Of a stretch of DNA of 56,477 nucleotides, positions 40,686 to 49,086 are shown in pieces. This DNA is from Kiritimatiellota bacterium (GTDB lineage Bacteria; Verrucomicrobiota; Lentisphaeria; Oligosphaerales; JAADHN01): positions 1 through 56,477 of the forward strand of contig JAADHN010000112.1 of NCBI GenBank assembly GCA_013151865.1, in the 5' to 3' direction. Numbering within the stretch: position 1 is the first letter of the stretch; the number at the start of each line of letters is the position of its first letter. Below the pieces are notes generated by a model, which saw nothing but the letters and a program-made list of their open reading frames with translations, did not search any database and had not been told where the DNA came from. A program made the translations under genes and the position numbers.

Positions 40686-42416
40686 ATGGCCACCACGCGA
40701 CAGTCGGTCACCATCAGCGACCATTTGATCGACATCCTGTGCGCCCGTGGCCACTTGGACGCAGAAACCGCCGGAGCGTTGCGTTCCGGCGAGTACGCCA
40801 ATTTGGCTGCGTTCGAGAAGGAGCTGGCCGAGCAACACGGCATTTCGCCGGAGAGTATCCTCTTGGCTCTGGCCGAGCACGCCCACCTCCCGGTGATGCC
40901 CTTGGCCCGGTTCATTGTGCCCGACGACCTCCTGGAGCTCCTGCCTCCCGAGTTGCTTGCTCAACGGCGGGCTTTGCCGTTGGCCCGGACCAAGTCGACC
41001 CTCACCCTGGCACTCGCAGATCCTCTCGATGTGCTGGCGGTGGAAGAAGTTGCGGGAGTATCGCGCCTCAAAGTCCTTCCCGTCGCCGCCTTGGAGAGTC
41101 AGATTCGGGATGCCTTGGGGGCCGCGGAACAGGACAGCCAGCAGGGACTGGACGAAATCCTCAGAGAAGCCACGGACGCTGACCTGGAAATCGCGCAAGA
41201 TTCGAATGAAGACGACAATGTGGACATCGAGAAAATGCTGGAGAGCGCCGAAGACGCTCCCGTCATTCGAATTGTGAATATGATCTTGGTCGAGGCCATC
41301 CGCAAGGGGGCCAGTGACATCCACATCGAGCCGTTCGAGAAAGTACTGCGTCTCAGGTATCGCATCGACGGCATCCTCCACGAGATGCCGGCGCCGCCCA
41401 AGATCCTGCAGCCGGCAGTCACCTCCAGAATAAAGGTCATGGCCAACCTGAACATCGCGGAGCGCCGTGTTCCCCAGGACGGCCGGTTCCGAATCCGCGC
41501 CCAAGGCCGCGAGATCGACCTGCGGATTTCAATCCTGCCCACCGTGCACGGAGAGAAAATCGTCCTGCGACTCCTGGACAAGTCCAACCTGGCCAAGGAC
41601 CTGGGCTCGATCGGACTGGATCCGGACTCCCTCCAAAAACTCCGCCATGCCATCCAACAACCTCACGGCCTGATTCTGGTCACCGGCCCCACCGGAAGCG
41701 GCAAAACCACCACGTTGTACTCGGCCCTCCAAGAACTCAACACTCCCGAAGTCAACATTGTGACGGTCGAAAACCCGGTGGAATACCAGTTGATGGGGAT
41801 CAACCAAGTGGAAATCCGGGAGCAAGTCGGCCTGAGCTTCGCCGCCGCCCTCCGGTCGATCCTCCGACAGGATCCGGACATCGTGCTCGTGGGAGAAACT
41901 CGTGATGCCGAGACCGCCGACATCGCGGTGAAAGCCGCTCTCACCGGCCACCTCGTGATGACCACTCTTCATACCAATGATGCTCCAGGCGCCATCGCGC
42001 GTTTGGCTTACATGGACATCGAACCGTTCTTGATCGCTTCGTCTCTGCGTCTGTCTCAGGCTCAGCGCCTGGTCCGATGCATCTGCACCAACTGCAAAGA
42101 ACCGTATCAATTGACCGCCGAGTACTGCAAGAGCAACGACATCCCCGTGGAAATGTTGGATGGCGTCGAGCTGTATCATGGCCGGGGTTGCAGCCGGTGC
42201 AGCGGCACGGGCTACAAAGGACGCGCCGCCATCATGGAAGTCCTTCCGATCAGTCCCCGTCTTCGGGAACTGATGCTGACAACGACAAATGCGGATGCCG
42301 TCCGGAACGCGGCCCTCGAGGAGGGGTTCCGGGATTTGCGCACGAACGGCTTCTTCCGAGTCAGGGAAGGCATTACGACGATAGAGGAAGTCCTCCGGGT
42401 AACAACGGAAAACTGA
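40686..42416 (+). CDS. gspE: Type II secretion/type IV pilus assembly ATPase
   Basis: This 576-residue cytosolic hexameric ATPase powers pseudopilus or pilus extension (GspE/PilB). An N-terminal MshEN-like domain (about 1-150) binds the membrane platform. An acidic linker (about 160-190) precedes the catalytic core, which has Walker A GPTGSGKTT (334-342), Asp-box ILRQDPDIVLVGETRD and His-box TLHTND. A tetracysteine zinc motif (Cys467, Cys470, Cys502, Cys505) is typical of extension ATPases. Start ATG 40686 has GGGGA upstream. It leads the locus; gspF follows after 281 bases. PilB and GspE cannot be separated by sequence alone. Confidence 0.95.
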   Translation: MATTRQSVTISDHLIDILCARGHLDAETAGALRSGEYANLAAFEKELAEQHGISPESILLALAEHAHLPVMPLARFIVPDDLLELLPPELLAQRRALPLARTKSTLTLALADPLDVLAVEEVAGVSRLKVLPVAALESQIRDALGAAEQDSQQGLDEILREATDADLEIAQDSNEDDNVDIEKMLESAEDAPVIRIVNMILVEAIRKGASDIHIEPFEKVLRLRYRIDGILHEMPAPPKILQPAVTSRIKVMANLNIAERRVPQDGRFRIRAQGREIDLRISILPTVHGEKIVLRLLDKSNLAKDLGSIGLDPDSLQKLRHAIQQPHGLILVTGPTGSGKTTTLYSALQELNTPEVNIVTVENPVEYQLMGINQVEIREQVGLSFAAALRSILRQDPDIVLVGETRDAETADIAVKAALTGHLVMTTLHTNDAPGAIARLAYMDIEPFLIASSLRLSQAQRLVRCICTNCKEPYQLTAEYCKSNDIPVEMLDGVELYHGRGCSRCSGTGYKGRAAIMEVLPISPRLRELMLTTTNADAVRNAALEEGFRDLRTNGFFRVREGITTIEEVLRVTTEN

Positions 42417-42508: not shown

Positions 42509-42697
42509 GCGCGCTGTTTTCTCGCCTGCGGAACACTGCAGCCGGCCGGAAGTATTCGGGGGAAACGACCCGAGGCGCGCCGCGGAACCGGGGGATTGGG
42601 AAAACCGGCAAGAAACGAAGCGTTCCCCGTCGCAACAGCGTTCGGGGCAACTTCCAGGACCGGGTCCACAACGGGAAATTTCGGCGGGACAACTACC

Positions 42698-43837
42698 ATG
42701 GCAGACTCAGAGCAACAGGACCGACGACAAGATCAATCCCGGGAAGAGCGATTGCGGCGGGGAGGAGCAATCCGCAAACGGCGCGTGCGGGGCATCCGCA
42801 AGATCCGCTTGGTGGAACTGCCGGCGTTCACGTTGCGCCTGGCCGCCATGCTCGACGCCGGCCTGCCCCTGATCCAATGCATGGAAGCGCTGTCCGAGCA
42901 GACGACGAACCTCGAATTCCGGCGAATCGTCAAGAGTATTGGGGCCCGCATCGAGGCCGGGGATTCCTTCGCGGAAGCCCTCCAAGGCTACCGGGTGCTT
43001 TTCGGGGATTTGTATGTGAGTATGGTTCGTGCCGGAGAAGTGGGCGGGGCCCTCGCCGAAGTCATGTCTCAGCTCGGTTCCTACCTCGAGGCCTCTCAGG
43101 CCCTCCGGCGCCGGGTCAAGTCGGCCATGACTTATCCGGTCATGGTCATGGGGCTCTCCCTGATCCTGACTGCATTCATGATCCTTTTCATCGTACCGAA
43201 ATTCGCCGATATTTACGCCGACTTCGGCGCCAAACTGCCCGCCCCCACCCAAGCCCTCGTCGACATCAGTACGTTCGTGCGGCGGCAGGCGCCGTTGGTT
43301 GCCGTTGTTATCGTGGTTTTGGTATACGGGCTGCGCCAAATGAAAAAATCGGCCCGGGGGCATTTGCTGTGGGATCGCTGCATCCTGAAGGCCCCGGTGG
43401 CCGGGCCCCTGATCGAGAAGATCGCCATCTCGCGCATGTCGCGCACCTTCTCCACGCTTATTCGGAGCGGCGTCCCCATCTTGCGAACACTCGAAATCGT
43501 CGGCGAAGCCAGCGGCAACTGGTACATCCGTTCCTGGTTGGTTAACGCCAGTCGAGACATCGAAGGCGGCGCGGCTCTGGCCGAGTCCTTCAAGAAACAT
43601 GGGCACTTTCCGCCCATGTTGATCCACATGGTGTCCGCCGGCGAAAAAACCGGCAATGTCGACGGCATGCTGGAGAAGGTTTCCGATTTCTACGACGATG
43701 AGGTCACCAACTCCCTCGAATCATTGTCGAGTATGATTGAACCTTTGCTGATGGCGTTCCTGGGGGTCGTCATCGGCGGTATCGTGATCTGTATGTTCAT
43801 GCCGATCTTCAAGTTGAGCACTATTGTCAATGGCTGA
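42698..43837 (+). CDS. gspF: Type II secretion/type IV pilus inner-membrane platform protein
   Basis: This 379-residue polytopic protein has two GspF/PilC domains. Each has the helical cytoplasmic module (first: FTLRLAAMLDAGLPLIQCMEAL; second: RMSRTFSTLIRSGVPILRTLEIV). Membrane helices lie near 150-170, 200-215 and 350-370 (LLMAFLGVVIGGIVICMF). It couples the ATPase to pseudopilin movement. ATG 42698 is used because the conserved region follows a short basic N-terminus; upstream in-frame sequence is Arg/Gly-rich and not conserved-looking. It overlaps the next gene by 8 bases. Confidence 0.94.
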   Translation: MADSEQQDRRQDQSREERLRRGGAIRKRRVRGIRKIRLVELPAFTLRLAAMLDAGLPLIQCMEALSEQTTNLEFRRIVKSIGARIEAGDSFAEALQGYRVLFGDLYVSMVRAGEVGGALAEVMSQLGSYLEASQALRRRVKSAMTYPVMVMGLSLILTAFMILFIVPKFADIYADFGAKLPAPTQALVDISTFVRRQAPLVAVVIVVLVYGLRQMKKSARGHLLWDRCILKAPVAGPLIEKIAISRMSRTFSTLIRSGVPILRTLEIVGEASGNWYIRSWLVNASRDIEGGAALAESFKKHGHFPPMLIHMVSAGEKTGNVDGMLEKVSDFYDDEVTNSLESLSSMIEPLLMAFLGVVIGGIVICMFMPIFKLSTIVNG

Positions 43838-45167
43838 TGCGGCGAAAACGGCAGGCCCGAGAACTCCGGCGAAGGAACCGGAGTCGATCCATTCGGTGTT
43901 GGTGCGGGTCATGCTCGGACGCCTTGTCCTGCTGGGGGCCCTGCTGGCGGGACTGAGCGCGCTGGCAGCCGGACGGTCGCTCGGGTTGTATGCGGTGATT
44001 GCCGTCGCCTTCCTGGTGACAATACCCTATGCCGCGTGGCTTCGAAACGTGGATACCATGCGTCAGAGCGCCGAGAATCAGTTTCTCCTGGACGTCCTGA
44101 TTATTACCGGGATCATTCATTTCACCGGCGGAATCGACAGCGATCTCTGTTTGCTCTATCCGTTGGTCATCCTGGCGGCGGGGATCGTGATTTCCGGCGA
44201 TCTCGCCTTTCGCGTCGCCCTTTTCGCCGTGCTCGTCTACGCCACGCTTACGGTCCTCGAGATCGGAGGCGTTTTGCCGTTCCCGCCCGGGAGCAGGGTC
44301 CCGGAGGCCACGCCCCAGGCAGCCATACAGACCCTGATGATGCGCGTCCTTTTCTTCCTGTTCTTCGCCGCTGCCGCCAGCTTCATCTCCGACCGGGTCC
44401 TGGTGCAGGATCGGGAACTCAGACGTCTTCGGGGCGTTGGACAGATCCTGTTCAATGAAGTGTCGGTGCCCTTGCTGGCTTACCTGCCCGAAACACGGCG
44501 TGTCGTCCTGGCGAACGAGGCGGCCGCCAATTTACTGGGAGCGGCGGCTGAGAGCCTTCATGACAGCAACATCGATGCGTTCTTCGGGGAGGCGATCCCC
44601 GATCCCGCGTCGGCCCCGGCGCCGACTCCCAACATTTGGGAGATGCGCCGGTGCGACGGAACGTCCTTCCCCGCCTTGGTCGAGATTTCCAATTCCCGCC
44701 TGCCCTCGTCCTTGGCGTCGACATTTACCGAGGCGACCGGCGTGGAAGAATTGGCGGTACTCGCCTTTCACGACGTGAGCGAACTCCTGGGTGAAAACGA
44801 AACCGCCCGACTGAGGCGGACCGCCGGCATACTGGCCGAACTCGCACACTCGGTCGGGAACCCGGTTGCCGCTCTGCGCGGCGCGGGAGATGTCCTGGCA
44901 AAAACCGCTCGACTTCTGGCCCGAGGCGGGAAGGTCACCGTGCAGGACTTGGCCCTGATCCAATCCATGTGCGGGGTGATCGGAGACGAAGCCAGAAAAC
45001 TCGACGACAAAGTCGCATTCTTCCTGGAATTGGCCGGCAGCAACCCCGAACGGCTCCGGGAACTGGCCGAGCAGGCCGAATTCTGGGCCGACAAGCTGGC
45101 GCTGGGACCGGAACGCGGGCAGGAAGCTGCATCCCCGCCGCTCGAAGTCCGGAAGGCAGAAGGATGA
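43830..45167 (+). CDS. PilS-like membrane sensor lacking a HATPase domain
   Basis: This 445-residue protein has six hydrophobic segments (about 22-180) laid out as in PilS, then a PAS-like domain (about 205-325, LAYLPETRRVVLANEAAANLL). A histidine kinase dimerisation helix carries H-box AELAHSVGNPVAAL (His340), and a second helix runs to about 415. The protein then ends. The N, G1, F and G2 boxes of the ATP-binding domain are absent, and only 60 bases separate it from the response regulator, so there is no displaced remnant. It may act as a phosphotransfer or phosphatase partner rather than an autokinase. ATG 43830 overlaps gspF by 8 bases. Confidence 0.85.
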   Translation: MADAAKTAGPRTPAKEPESIHSVLVRVMLGRLVLLGALLAGLSALAAGRSLGLYAVIAVAFLVTIPYAAWLRNVDTMRQSAENQFLLDVLIITGIIHFTGGIDSDLCLLYPLVILAAGIVISGDLAFRVALFAVLVYATLTVLEIGGVLPFPPGSRVPEATPQAAIQTLMMRVLFFLFFAAAASFISDRVLVQDRELRRLRGVGQILFNEVSVPLLAYLPETRRVVLANEAAANLLGAAAESLHDSNIDAFFGEAIPDPASAPAPTPNIWEMRRCDGTSFPALVEISNSRLPSSLASTFTEATGVEELAVLAFHDVSELLGENETARLRRTAGILAELAHSVGNPVAALRGAGDVLAKTARLLARGGKVTVQDLALIQSMCGVIGDEARKLDDKVAFFLELAGSNPERLRELAEQAEFWADKLALGPERGQEAASPPLEVRKAEG

Positions 45168-45227: not shown

Positions 45228-46610
45228 ATGGCGCGTATCCTCGTAGTAGACGATGAACCCAACGTACTGAAAGTCCTCGAGGCCTTGCTGGTTCAGGACG
45301 GGAACGAAGTCGTGGCAGTCGCTTCTGCCGAGGAAGCCCTGGACGCACTTGCCGGCCAGCCTTGCGACCTGATGATCAGCGATCTGCGTCTGGGCCGGGG
45401 AATGGACGGGCTGGAACTGCTCCACGAAGCCCGAACCAGGGCCCCGCATATGCCCACCGTCATGATTACTGCATACGGAACTATCGAGGTGGCTGTCCAG
45501 GCAATGAAGGAAGGGGCCTTCGACTTCATCCGGAAGCCGTTCCGAATGGAAGAGCTGTTGGAAACCGTCCGCAACGCTTTGCGTCACCGTCGCATCGCCA
45601 CCGACCAAGCCGTCCTCGACGCCGGAGAAATTGAGCTTCACTTCGGCTCGCTCGTGGGTGAAAGCGAACCCATGAAACGCATCTACGGGATGATCGAGCG
45701 CATTGCCAAGACCGATACCACCGTATTGATTCAGGGCGAAAGCGGTACCGGCAAAGAACTGATTGCCAAGGCGATTCATACCCAGAGCCGCCGGGTCGAC
45801 GGCCCTTGGGTGGCGCTGAATTGCGCCGCCATCCCCGCGCCGCTGTTGGAATCGGAAATGTTCGGCCACGCGGCCGGAGCATTCACCGGTGCGACGCAAA
45901 GCCGGAACGGCCTGTTCCTCGCCGCCAACGGGGGGACACTGTTTCTCGACGAGATCAGCGCCATGGATTTGGCCATCCAAGGCAAGTTCCTGCGGGCCTT
46001 GCAGGAACGGCGTGTTCGCCGGGTCGGGGAGAATACGTATCTTCCCGTCGATGTCCGTGTCGTGGCGGCAACCAACGAATCGCTCGCCGCGAAGAAGGAT
46101 TCTGGAGAATTCCGTGAAGACCTCTTCTATCGCATCAGCGTGATTCCCATCGACCTCCCCCCATTGCGACACCGGCCCGAGGACGTCCCGCTGCTGGTCC
46201 GCTACTTCTGTCGCCAGCAATCCGAAGCCCAGAATCGCGCGCTTTCCATCGAGCCCGAAGTCGTGGCTTTGTTGACCGAGTACGCCTGGCCGGGAAACGT
46301 GCGGGAATTGGAGAACGCCATCGCCTGTGCCGCCGCCTTGAGTGAGGACGGGGTGATCCGCCGCGAAAACCTGCCTCCGAACATTGCGGGCAGCGGTGGG
46401 GCCGGAGACACCGCGACAGATCACGGAAAAACCCTTTTCACTGCGATGGACCGCGCTTCCGGACGGGGGAAATCGCTCCGCGAGTTCCTTCGGGAAAAAG
46501 AACGGGAATACATGCGCGCGGTTTTGCTGCGCACCGGCGGCAATCGCATCAAGGCCGCTCAGTTGCTTGGGATCAGCCGGGCGACGCTTTACAGAAAACT
46601 GGAAGAATAA
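45228..46610 (+). CDS. Sigma54-dependent response regulator, NtrC/PilR-type
   Basis: This is a 460-residue transcription activator. The receiver domain (1-120) has acidic pocket Asp8/Asp9, phosphoacceptor Asp52, Thr81 and Lys103. The AAA+ domain (about 145-380) has Walker A GESGTGKE (170-177), the sigma54-contacting GAFTGA (217-222) and Walker B-type GTLFLDEI. A Fis-type helix-turn-helix lies at the C-terminus (NRIKAAQLLGISRATLYRKL). ATG 45228 has AAGGAAGG upstream. Paired with the membrane sensor just before it, it likely controls pilus/secretion genes, possibly from the sigma54-like element upstream of gspE. Confidence 0.95.
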   Translation: MARILVVDDEPNVLKVLEALLVQDGNEVVAVASAEEALDALAGQPCDLMISDLRLGRGMDGLELLHEARTRAPHMPTVMITAYGTIEVAVQAMKEGAFDFIRKPFRMEELLETVRNALRHRRIATDQAVLDAGEIELHFGSLVGESEPMKRIYGMIERIAKTDTTVLIQGESGTGKELIAKAIHTQSRRVDGPWVALNCAAIPAPLLESEMFGHAAGAFTGATQSRNGLFLAANGGTLFLDEISAMDLAIQGKFLRALQERRVRRVGENTYLPVDVRVVAATNESLAAKKDSGEFREDLFYRISVIPIDLPPLRHRPEDVPLLVRYFCRQQSEAQNRALSIEPEVVALLTEYAWPGNVRELENAIACAAALSEDGVIRRENLPPNIAGSGGAGDTATDHGKTLFTAMDRASGRGKSLREFLREKEREYMRAVLLRTGGNRIKAAQLLGISRATLYRKLEE

Positions 46611-46699
46611 AGGCTCGTGCGTTCCGCTTGACAACGGCCGCCGGCGGCCGAACACCACAACCGCCTCGGAACAGAGCAAAAACAGCGAGAATCACCGTC

Positions 46700-47764
46700 G
46701 TGCCTTCCTTGCCCAATATCAGATTTCGAATACAGAGAAGCGCGGACCGTTGGGGACCGCGACGTCTGCTTGTGTTGGATTTCGGCCCGAATGCCACATC
46801 AACCGTGGTTTTCACCCGGAACCAGAAACAAATCCGTTGGGACAAAGCCGTGTTCCTCCCGGCGGCCGACCGAGACTTGGCCTTCAAGGGCGACGACTTG
46901 CGGGGAGTGCTGGCGGCGCACGGTCTGCACAGCGATTACGTCAGTGTGATTTACGGCGGCCCGGGCATTGGAATCCGACTGCTGAGTTTCCCCGGGGTGC
47001 CGGGCACTCCGGAAGCCATTACCCAACAGGTGGCGCAGGCCCTGGGTGTCGACGCCCATGCCACAAGCGTCGTACACCAGCTCGTCCATCGGTCCGGCGA
47101 ACAGGAGAAAGCACCCGAGTACGCCGTCTTGGCCGCTTCCATGCCCCGGCCCCTTGTCATGGGGATCCGCGGCATGGTGGAAGGCGCCGGCTTGACTCCG
47201 GTAAGCCTCGTTACACCCGGCATCGCAGCCGCAAATCTCACCCGGGCGTTCCCGAGCTTGCTCGAAGCGACCGGAGTCACCGCTTTCCTGGACATAAATG
47301 CCGCCGGATCCATCCTGCTCATCTATCGCGGGACCGACCTCGTCCTGGCACGTCACTTCCGGTTCGGATCCGAGCAAATCATCCAGGCACTGCAGACGGG
47401 GACCAATCTCGACCGTGAGACCGCCGCCAAACTCTTCCTGAGCGGCTCGTTCGACTTTTCCGCCAATGTCGTCCGAACCGTTGACCCTTGGCTCCACCAA
47501 GTGGCCATCAGCCTCGATTTCCTCGAACGCCGCTACGGAAGCCCGGTGAAGAAACTGTTTCTCTTCGGCGAGGGGGCCAGGTCAAAGGTCTTGGAGCGAA
47601 TGCTCGACGAACGCGTTCAATGCTCCGTGATGCAGTGGTTGCCGCTCGAAGAAGAAAGCGTCACACCGCCTCCGCCGAAGTCCGCCGACCCGCTCGACGC
47701 GTTCACCGCCGCCGCCGGCGAGGCCTGCAGAATCATGAAAGCAGGATTGACCGATGCTGTATGA
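46700..47764 (+). CDS. pilM: PilM-like actin-fold assembly protein
   Basis: This protein of about 354 residues resembles PilM/GspL cytoplasmic domains: an actin-like fold beginning LLVLDFGPNATSTVVF, a middle with GIRGMVEGAGLTPVSLVTPGIAAANL, AFLDINAAGSILLIYRG, and a late SPVKKLFLFGEGARS strand. It would sit under the inner membrane and bind the N-terminus of PilN. Identification rests on fold-like motifs and on being followed by pilN- and pilO-like genes. The start is uncertain. GTG 46700 precedes the conserved part closely; TTG 46628 is an in-frame alternative. It overlaps pilN by 11 bases. Confidence 0.78.
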   Translation: MPSLPNIRFRIQRSADRWGPRRLLVLDFGPNATSTVVFTRNQKQIRWDKAVFLPAADRDLAFKGDDLRGVLAAHGLHSDYVSVIYGGPGIGIRLLSFPGVPGTPEAITQQVAQALGVDAHATSVVHQLVHRSGEQEKAPEYAVLAASMPRPLVMGIRGMVEGAGLTPVSLVTPGIAAANLTRAFPSLLEATGVTAFLDINAAGSILLIYRGTDLVLARHFRFGSEQIIQALQTGTNLDRETAAKLFLSGSFDFSANVVRTVDPWLHQVAISLDFLERRYGSPVKKLFLFGEGARSKVLERMLDERVQCSVMQWLPLEEESVTPPPPKSADPLDAFTAAAGEACRIMKAGLTDAV

Positions 47765-48425
47765 TTTGAACTTTTGGCAAACACCAGACTGGCGCCGGGA
47801 GAGTTCCCTCGATCCTCGGTTCTTGGCGGCGGTTCTGTGCTGCCTGGTACTGGTCGCCCTGCTGGGGCTGCTCAGTTGGCGCTATCGCCGATACGTCACC
47901 CTCGGCGCCCAGGTCGCCGTCTTCCAGGCCAAATACGACAAGGTCGAATCGAAAGCTGCAGAAGTGGACCGGCAGCGCGCCTGCATTCGGAACTGGCAGC
48001 GCGTGCTGAGGGGATTGGATCACAAGAAGCGCGTGCGTCCCCTGTGGTGTCGGCAACTGGCCGCGCTCCAGCAACTGATTCCGGACTCCCTCATCTTCAG
48101 CTCGATCAGCTTCAGCTCGCAACAGACCGAAATCGTCCCCGAGAACAGCAAGAAAGACAAGAGCGGACGCCCCAAGCGCATTCCGGTGATCGTCGGCGAA
48201 TTGACACTTCGCGGAATCGCCGTCGGTCCCACGGCCAGTGAAGATATTGCCTGGCTTTCCCGAAACATCGAACGAGATCCCATTCTCGGGCCGCTGCTCG
48301 AATCGGCCAGGCTCGATACCGTCGCATCCGCAACCGACGACCTCAGGACCGGGGCTGCACAAAAAAGTTTCACCATCTTCTGCACCTATAAACCGATCAG
48401 GTGGTTCGATGTCCCCAAAAAATAG
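47754..48425 (+). CDS. pilN: PilN-like inner-membrane assembly protein
   Basis: This 223-residue bitopic protein has a short cytoplasmic start (MLYDLNFWQTPDWRR), where PilN proteins contact PilM, and one membrane helix (about 25-42). A coiled coil follows (about 48-85), then a periplasmic ferredoxin-like domain with SLIFSSISF and GELTLRGIA strands. It forms the alignment complex with PilM and PilO. The gene overlaps pilM by 11 bases and pilO by 17, indicating tight translational coupling. Sequence similarity to named PilN is low; the call relies on topology and position. Confidence 0.75.
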   Translation: MLYDLNFWQTPDWRRESSLDPRFLAAVLCCLVLVALLGLLSWRYRRYVTLGAQVAVFQAKYDKVESKAAEVDRQRACIRNWQRVLRGLDHKKRVRPLWCRQLAALQQLIPDSLIFSSISFSSQQTEIVPENSKKDKSGRPKRIPVIVGELTLRGIAVGPTASEDIAWLSRNIERDPILGPLLESARLDTVASATDDLRTGAAQKSFTIFCTYKPIRWFDVPKK

Positions 48426-49086
48426 CTTGCCAAAAATCGTGATTTCCAAGGAAGACGCCCAGAAGCTCCTGGTGGGGGCGATGATTGCCGTCGGCATTCT
48501 CGTCGCCTTCTGGCAGTTTGCCTGGAAGCCCCTCGGAACCAAGATCGCGGCCAGGAAAAAAGAGCTGGCCGAAGTGCGGAAAACCTACGAAGAGGCCAAA
48601 CGCCTGACGGACGTTGCCGATGAGATCGCAACGCGCTACGAAGCCGTTCGCACCCGGCTGGGGCAATTGATGAAAGCCCAATTGCCGCCCCCCGTCAACG
48701 CCACGGCCTGGGCAAGCGACCTGTTTATGCAAACGGCCGTGAGCAACCGCAAGGGAGTGACCATCATCTCGATCGGAGACCGGGGCGTGCAACGATTGCA
48801 GCACCGCAAGAACACCCCGCCCCCCCTGTTCGAGGAATGCCTGTTTCAGGTGACGCTCACCGCGGGGTATCACGATTTTGGCCGCTTTCTTGCTCAGCTC
48901 GAGAAAAACAACCCGTTCTTCCGGGTCGAGTCCCTCAGTCTGTCGCGCGCCCCGTCCAAGGAAGAACACCTGTTGGCGGTCAACATGAGTTGCGCCTTCC
49001 CCCGTTTGACGTTGGAGGGGTTCCCGCCGGAAGAGCGTCCGGATGCCGAGTCCCCTCACGTGCGAGCAAAGGCCGAATCAAAATGA
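48409..49086 (+). CDS. pilO: PilO-like inner-membrane assembly protein
   Basis: This 225-residue bitopic protein has one membrane helix (about 19-37, VGAMIAVGILVAFWQFAW), a coiled coil (about 40-85) and a periplasmic ferredoxin-like domain containing FQVTLTAGYHDFGRFLAQLEKNNPFFRV. That is the FL..LE(K/N).. pattern of PilO. It pairs with PilN in the alignment complex linking platform to secretin. ATG 48409 lies inside the end of pilN; the stop overlaps the next start by ATGA (49083-49086). Confidence 0.8.
   Translation: MSPKNSLPKIVISKEDAQKLLVGAMIAVGILVAFWQFAWKPLGTKIAARKKELAEVRKTYEEAKRLTDVADEIATRYEAVRTRLGQLMKAQLPPPVNATAWASDLFMQTAVSNRKGVTIISIGDRGVQRLQHRKNTPPPLFEECLFQVTLTAGYHDFGRFLAQLEKNNPFFRVESLSLSRAPSKEEHLLAVNMSCAFPRLTLEGFPPEERPDAESPHVRAKAESK

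Follow-up and report, generated by a model that had tools for sequence, protein, structure and literature searches.

A PilS-derived pilus sensor without an ATP-binding domain, conserved with its PilR-type regulator in Lentisphaerae and Kiritimatiellae

Introduction

The PilS sensor of the Pseudomonas-type PilS/PilR system combines a six-transmembrane PilS domain, a PAS domain and a HisKA-type DHp domain, and it is encoded in a pil cluster next to a sigma-54 regulator. When pilins build up in the inner membrane they interact with PilS and the activation of PilR falls, and the substitution N323A in the phosphatase motif of Pseudomonas PilS blocks the deactivation of phospho-PilR (PMC11960060); details of PilS site mutants are not given in PMC6058289. 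For HisKA kinases, an acidic residue directly after the phosphoacceptor His (H+1) is needed for kinase and not for phosphatase activity, and the reverse holds for Asn or Thr at H+4 (PMC3510030). The DHp of NtrB or EnvZ is by itself enough for phosphatase activity, although the CA domain raises it greatly (PMC3510030); these were laboratory fragments and not natural proteins.

Natural HisKA proteins without a HATPase domain are a known, largely unstudied kind. They account for 3.66% of the HisKA proteins in SMART, with 1.7% carrying a phosphatase motif (PMC3591291). Those of archaea are mostly misannotated as kinases, and a phosphatase activity has been proposed for them (PMC5847659).

Here we describe a sensor of this kind from a Kiritimatiellota bacterium (assembly GCA_013151865.1). 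The window, by which we mean the whole stretch of DNA analysed, covers 56,477 nucleotides of contig JAADHN010000112.1. The window sensor shares the domains and the gene neighbourhood of PilS listed above, but it has no HATPase domain, carries Ser in place of the acidic H+1 residue and ends in an extra short helix. With the archaeal proteins, classed as 'HisKA, no HATPase' or, in P2CS, as 'possible incomplete histidine kinase' (PMC5847659), it has in common a sensor part, a HisKA-like DHp with the conserved His and the lack of a HATPase domain. Unlike that set, it is membrane-bound, derived from PilS and encoded in the same operon as a cognate sigma-54 regulator, and its family traces to one loss in one bacterial clade in which the kinase-specific residue is drifting. 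The original prediction, made from the window's sequence, had called the arrangement unusual; it is indeed real and conserved, but HATPase-less HisKA proteins as such had already been described. Within a limited literature search we found no paper on HATPase-less PilS of this clade. What is new is a clade-wide, operon-linked version of PilS with its own regulator, a single ancestral loss, and a kinase residue that drifts while the phosphatase residue is retained.

The pil operon and the sensor protein

All window features described here lie on the forward strand. Genes for a pilB/T2SSE-type ATPase (40686-42416; PF00437, E=2e-136, with MshEN) and a pilC/T2SSF-type inner membrane protein (42683-43837; PF00482, E=1e-62) are followed by the sensor gene (43830-45167, 445 aa), whose start, the ATG at 43830, lies within the end of pilC so that the two genes share 8 bases. 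Between its stop (TGA, 45165-45167) and the ATG at 45228 of an NtrC/PilR-type sigma-54 response regulator (45228-46610) there is the 60-base gap that had been reported from the sequence. This regulator, which adjoins the sensor and sits between pilBC and pilMNO, has an intact receiver (D8, D9, D52, T and K), the motifs GESGTGKE, GAFTGA and GTLFLDEI, and an HTH_8 domain. Downstream are genes for PilM-like (46628-47764; PF11104, E=1e-6), PilN-like (47754-48425; PF05137, E=0.002, a match below cut-off that is supported by the M-N-O gene order) and PilO-like (48406-49086; PF04350, E=4e-5) proteins. A sigma-54 gene is present in the window's genome. A scan of the window for sigma-54 promoters was uninformative, the 14 matches with two mismatches being fewer than expected by chance.

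The AlphaFold model of the sensor (mean pLDDT 78, built from 41 aligned homologues) omits the initial Met in its numbering, so that the phosphoacceptor position is 339 in the model and 340 with Met. It begins with six long helices, which coincide with the PilS-like membrane region (43887-44408, residues 19-192 without Met, boundary approximate), and membership of the PilS family is supported by a match above the cut-off to 6TM_PilS (PF25323, E=4e-7). The PAS-like domain (44472-44774, residues 214-314) has a PAS fold in the model, with strands, and PAS matches in the PDB; in Pfam the match is weak (PAS_9, best E=0.0018, under the curated cut-off). The two helices 323-364 and 370-403 form a HisKA-like DHp domain (44799-45041, residues 323-403). 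The window sensor itself reached no HisKA match in Pfam, but close relatives do. When the family profile was compared with the PDB, histidine kinases were matched through the PAS and DHp parts only and the matches stop at the end of the DHp, for instance 3a0r over profile positions 191-414 and 3dge over positions 312-416. His340 (CAC, 44847-44849) lies within AELAHSVGNPVAAL and is followed by Ser, not by Glu or Asp. Asn344 (AAC, 44859-44861) occupies the H+4 phosphatase position and by motif equals N323 of PilS (PMC3510030, PMC11960060). At H+3, where an Arg is conserved in relatives, the window sensor has Gly. A short extra helix (45045-45095, residues 405-421) stands at the site where the linker to a HATPase domain would begin. 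The protein therefore has the composition by which HATPase-less HisKA proteins, or incomplete histidine kinases, are defined, namely a sensor domain and a DHp without HATPase, and Pfam and the model bear out the six membrane segments, PAS-like domain and H-box followed by a stop that the original prediction had described.

That prediction had also read the protein as lacking an ATP-binding part after the H-box, which holds for the protein and for the whole window. Pfam finds no HATPase match in the sensor, a profile built from related full kinases gave nothing significant in the six frames of the whole window, and none of the 41 HATPase_c sites of the genome is on the window's contig. Together, the empty six-frame search and the absence of HATPase_c sites on the contig indicate that there is no frameshifted remnant of the domain. 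A frameshift or an assembly error was rejected on this ground and because all relatives are equally short.

Conservation of the short sensor

We collected 41 short sensors, window included, from Lentisphaerae, Kiritimatiellales and Pontiellaceae. All of them stop 60-115 residues past the His, the shortest tail (L064) being cut by its contig end. A scan of named genomes found relatives in these three groups and in bins labelled Verrucomicrobia; carriers include the cultured Pontiella sulfatireligans F21 as well as Pontiellaceae B1224 and B12227. Genomes of the same order encode proteins that are 29-46% identical to the window sensor and stop at the same place. The sister-genome comparison of protein length that had been proposed as a check was thus carried out, and every sister genome with the gene has an equally short one, so a full HATPase domain at this position in sister genomes, which would have spoken for a recent truncation, was not found.

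PilS-type outgroups, taken from Nitrospinota, Methylomirabilota, Syntrophaceae/Deltaproteobacteria and Acidobacteria bins, run 208-223 residues past the His and carry a HATPase domain. In a tree of the shared region a single branch (SH-aLRT 100) separates all short proteins from the others, so that one loss of the HATPase domain suffices. When full kinases from the same phylum were added, the HATPase-less branch had a support of 100/100 (bootstrap/SH-aLRT), and a single HATPase change was obtained in 100% of 200 bootstrap trees. The 6TM_PilS proteins from other parts of the phylum that do carry a HATPase domain (L011, L015) are not members of the short-sensor clade. The sensor gene is under purifying selection, with dN/dS values of 0.05-0.22 in six pairs.

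The window's genome has two further HATPase-less paralogues, on contigs C15 and C170. Beside the C15 paralogue is a regulator (L087:5834-7348) that has an intact receiver and a degenerate AAA+ domain, with GERGVGRS for the Walker A motif, GSSADA for GAFTGA and IEN for DE, and no HTH_8 was found in it; from these motifs it may be a pseudo-activator. The C170 paralogue (L086:5397-6719) is PilS-like and has no adjacent regulator; immediately downstream of it is the gene for a 1047-aa HAMP-PAS-HisKA-HATPase-REC hybrid kinase (L086:6892-10032). Unrelated to PilS is a 220-aa receiver-plus-HisKA protein on C40 (L124:1096-1758), FAGATAHELRQPL, which stops 78 residues past its His and has no HATPase domain.

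Residues of the DHp domain and the partner regulators

Residues were counted in the 41 short proteins with a readable DHp, window included. The His is kept in 38 and replaced by Gln in two (CAA, CAG) and by Tyr in one (TAC), although such single-base changes may partly be errors since the relatives are mostly metagenome bins. The losses occurred three separate times within the HATPase-less clade, and the view that every member keeps the His was rejected on account of L060, L012 and L066. The phosphoaccepting His that an HPt-type phosphotransfer protein requires is present in the window sensor and replaced in these three relatives. The residue at H+1 is Glu in 9/9 full PilS outgroup kinases, and of the histidine kinases in the window's genome whose H-box can be recognised, most have E or D there. 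Among the short sensors it is acidic in 20/41 and S, Q, V, R or H in the other 21, the window with its Ser among them. By parsimony, which depends on the tree, there were at least 5 changes between acid and non-acid, and H+1 is the fastest position from -1 to +6 (8 changes vs 1-4). By contrast, H+4 is N, T or S in 41/41 (N in the window), a conservation that by itself is no proof of catalysis and may be partly structural, because P at +5 and L at +6 are conserved as strongly. A Glu at H-3 (window 44838-44840) is found in 36/38 short proteins and in 0/9 outgroup kinases.

The cognate regulator is the neighbour of the sensor in most loci. In all alignable PilR-type partners of HATPase-less sensors the receiver residues D, D, D, T and K are kept, including those beside the three sensors without His (L060 and L066 with Gln, L012/L096 with Tyr). 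Walker A, the GAFTGA-type loop and Walker B are kept in all but one of the aligned partners, the exception being the partner of the C15 paralogue with its degenerate AAA+ domain. Three loci (L044, L046, L049) have pilB-pilC-type genes followed by a HATPase-less sensor and no adjacent PilR-type regulator; at L046 and L049 the gene after the sensor looks metabolic.

Search for a HATPase partner

A conserved orphan HATPase had been suggested as something to look for, and no dedicated one was found with PF02518 in the window's genome, G029 or G147, which have 41, 22 and 25 HATPase_c sites. G029 and G147 both carry the short sensor, and neither has a PF02518 match in a frame under 398 aa (G029) or 361 aa (G147). 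The only small HATPase frame of the window's genome is a stand-alone one of 158 aa on contig C104, where it lies in a cluster of DRTGG/CBS/PHP-like genes that also contains a CBS-HATPase fusion (L085:2133-4631). Relatives of it are found in several genomes of the order. Close relatives occur in genomes without a short PilS, while in G147, G154 and G159, all carriers of a short PilS, its only matches are kinase-like. We rejected it as the partner on account of its DRTGG/PHP-like cluster and of a distribution that does not follow the short PilS. A conserved neighbouring kinase was rejected as well: three Pontiellaceae-like loci have one, several kb downstream of the sensor on the opposite strand, but most loci do not. 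As G029 and G147 have no small PF02518 frame and the C104 protein is not co-distributed, a dedicated split HATPase partner is unlikely. The phosphate may come from acetyl phosphate, from a complete kinase that acts in trans or from a HATPase that PF02518 does not cover.

Discussion

The kept receiver residues suggest that the regulators are still switched by phosphate, while the sensor beside them cannot make it. We lean towards the explanation that the sensor is a sensor-gated phosphatase of its PilR-type regulator, with phosphate supplied from elsewhere. Of the three options raised by the original prediction, the repeated loss of the H+1 acid, the three losses of His beside intact receivers and the N or T at H+4 favour the phosphatase over the acceptor of phosphate from another kinase; signalling by contact is less likely than the phosphatase.

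In the mechanism that we propose, a PilS-derived membrane sensor, whose ancestor lost the ATP-binding domain once and did so ahead of the split between the Lentisphaerae and Kiritimatiellae members, would now work without being a kinase itself. The four-helix bundle of the DHp would take its conformation from the membrane and PAS parts and would bind the cognate regulator, and the H+4 amide or hydroxyl (Asn344) would position a water molecule for the removal of phosphate from Asp52. When its signal is present, possibly excess pilin in the membrane by analogy with PilS, the sensor would lower sigma-54-dependent pilus transcription. The phosphate of the regulator would come from another histidine kinase or a small-molecule donor. 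Several observations count against a phosphatase. Since the phosphatase of EnvZ and NtrB is strongly boosted by the CA domain, a DHp on its own might have little activity. Roughly half of the members retain an acidic H+1, and the window sensor has Gly in place of the conserved Arg at H+3. The His is kept in most members even though in CrdS it only enhances phosphatase activity, which leaves room for a role as phosphoacceptor.

Such a role is the core of a split kinase or relay, in which the ATPase of another kinase would phosphorylate His340 in trans and the DHp would pass the phosphate on to the regulator, as modelled on CheA3/CheA4 of Rhodobacter sphaeroides or on Spo0B-like relays. In CheA3/CheA4, as here, the phosphoacceptor and phosphatase part is apart from the ATPase; the domains of EnvZ function as separate polypeptides, and split kinases do exist (PMC3591291). 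The widespread His, the intact receivers and the hybrid kinase adjoining the C170 paralogue agree with this explanation. We nevertheless consider it unlikely, since G029 and G147 have no dedicated stand-alone HATPase and the C104 protein is not co-distributed, three members without His stand beside intact regulators, and 21/41 have lost the acidic residue that favours phosphorylation of the His. The likeness to CheA3/CheA4 is also limited, as those have an ATPase partner and a CheA Hpt, whereas here no partner was found, the domain is HisKA and the His is not universal.

Close behind the split kinase in likelihood, and also rather improbable, is that the sensor acts by contact without any chemistry. 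It would then either hold the regulator in a bound state or associate with a second sensor kinase, in the way of RocA with CovS or RetS with GacS. RocA of group A Streptococcus, a six-transmembrane pseudokinase, works without its His, and a form without CA complements when overexpressed (PMC7028121). The dispensable His in three lineages would fit such a role, and the new, conserved Glu at H-3 together with the additional helix at the C-terminus may mark a surface that has taken on a new use. RocA, however, keeps a degenerate CA domain and acts on the kinase CovS rather than being paired with its own regulator, whereas here most sensors adjoin their cognate regulator and no gene for a partner kinase recurs regularly beside them. 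The restriction of H+4 to N, T and S is what would be expected of a catalytic amide or hydroxyl, and the phosphorylation residues of the receiver are kept in all aligned partners. That the sensor is a non-functional relic, left by a pilS copy in decay, or an artefact of misassembly is hardly credible: the relatives are mostly metagenome-assembled genomes, and the Gly at H+3 and the weak HisKA score of the window sensor might resemble decay, but the end point is identical in all relatives, isolates included, the loss was a single ancestral one, the dN/dS values are low and the operon position is kept. For the family, conservation has already refuted this explanation.

The phosphatase explanation that we prefer can be addressed by experiment. 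The family offers a full-length ancestor, a known operon, a single loss, a neighbouring cognate regulator, natural variants without His and a cultured host, Pontiella sulfatireligans, which makes the role of an ATPase-less kinase-like sensor directly testable. It is also a natural experiment that can separate the DHp residues used for kinase activity from those used for phosphatase activity. On an even balance of the evidence, the pilus two-component sensor of a whole lineage may be a phosphatase only, in which case the kinase and phosphatase functions would have been separated in evolution and activation would depend on a different kinase or on a phosphodonor from metabolism.
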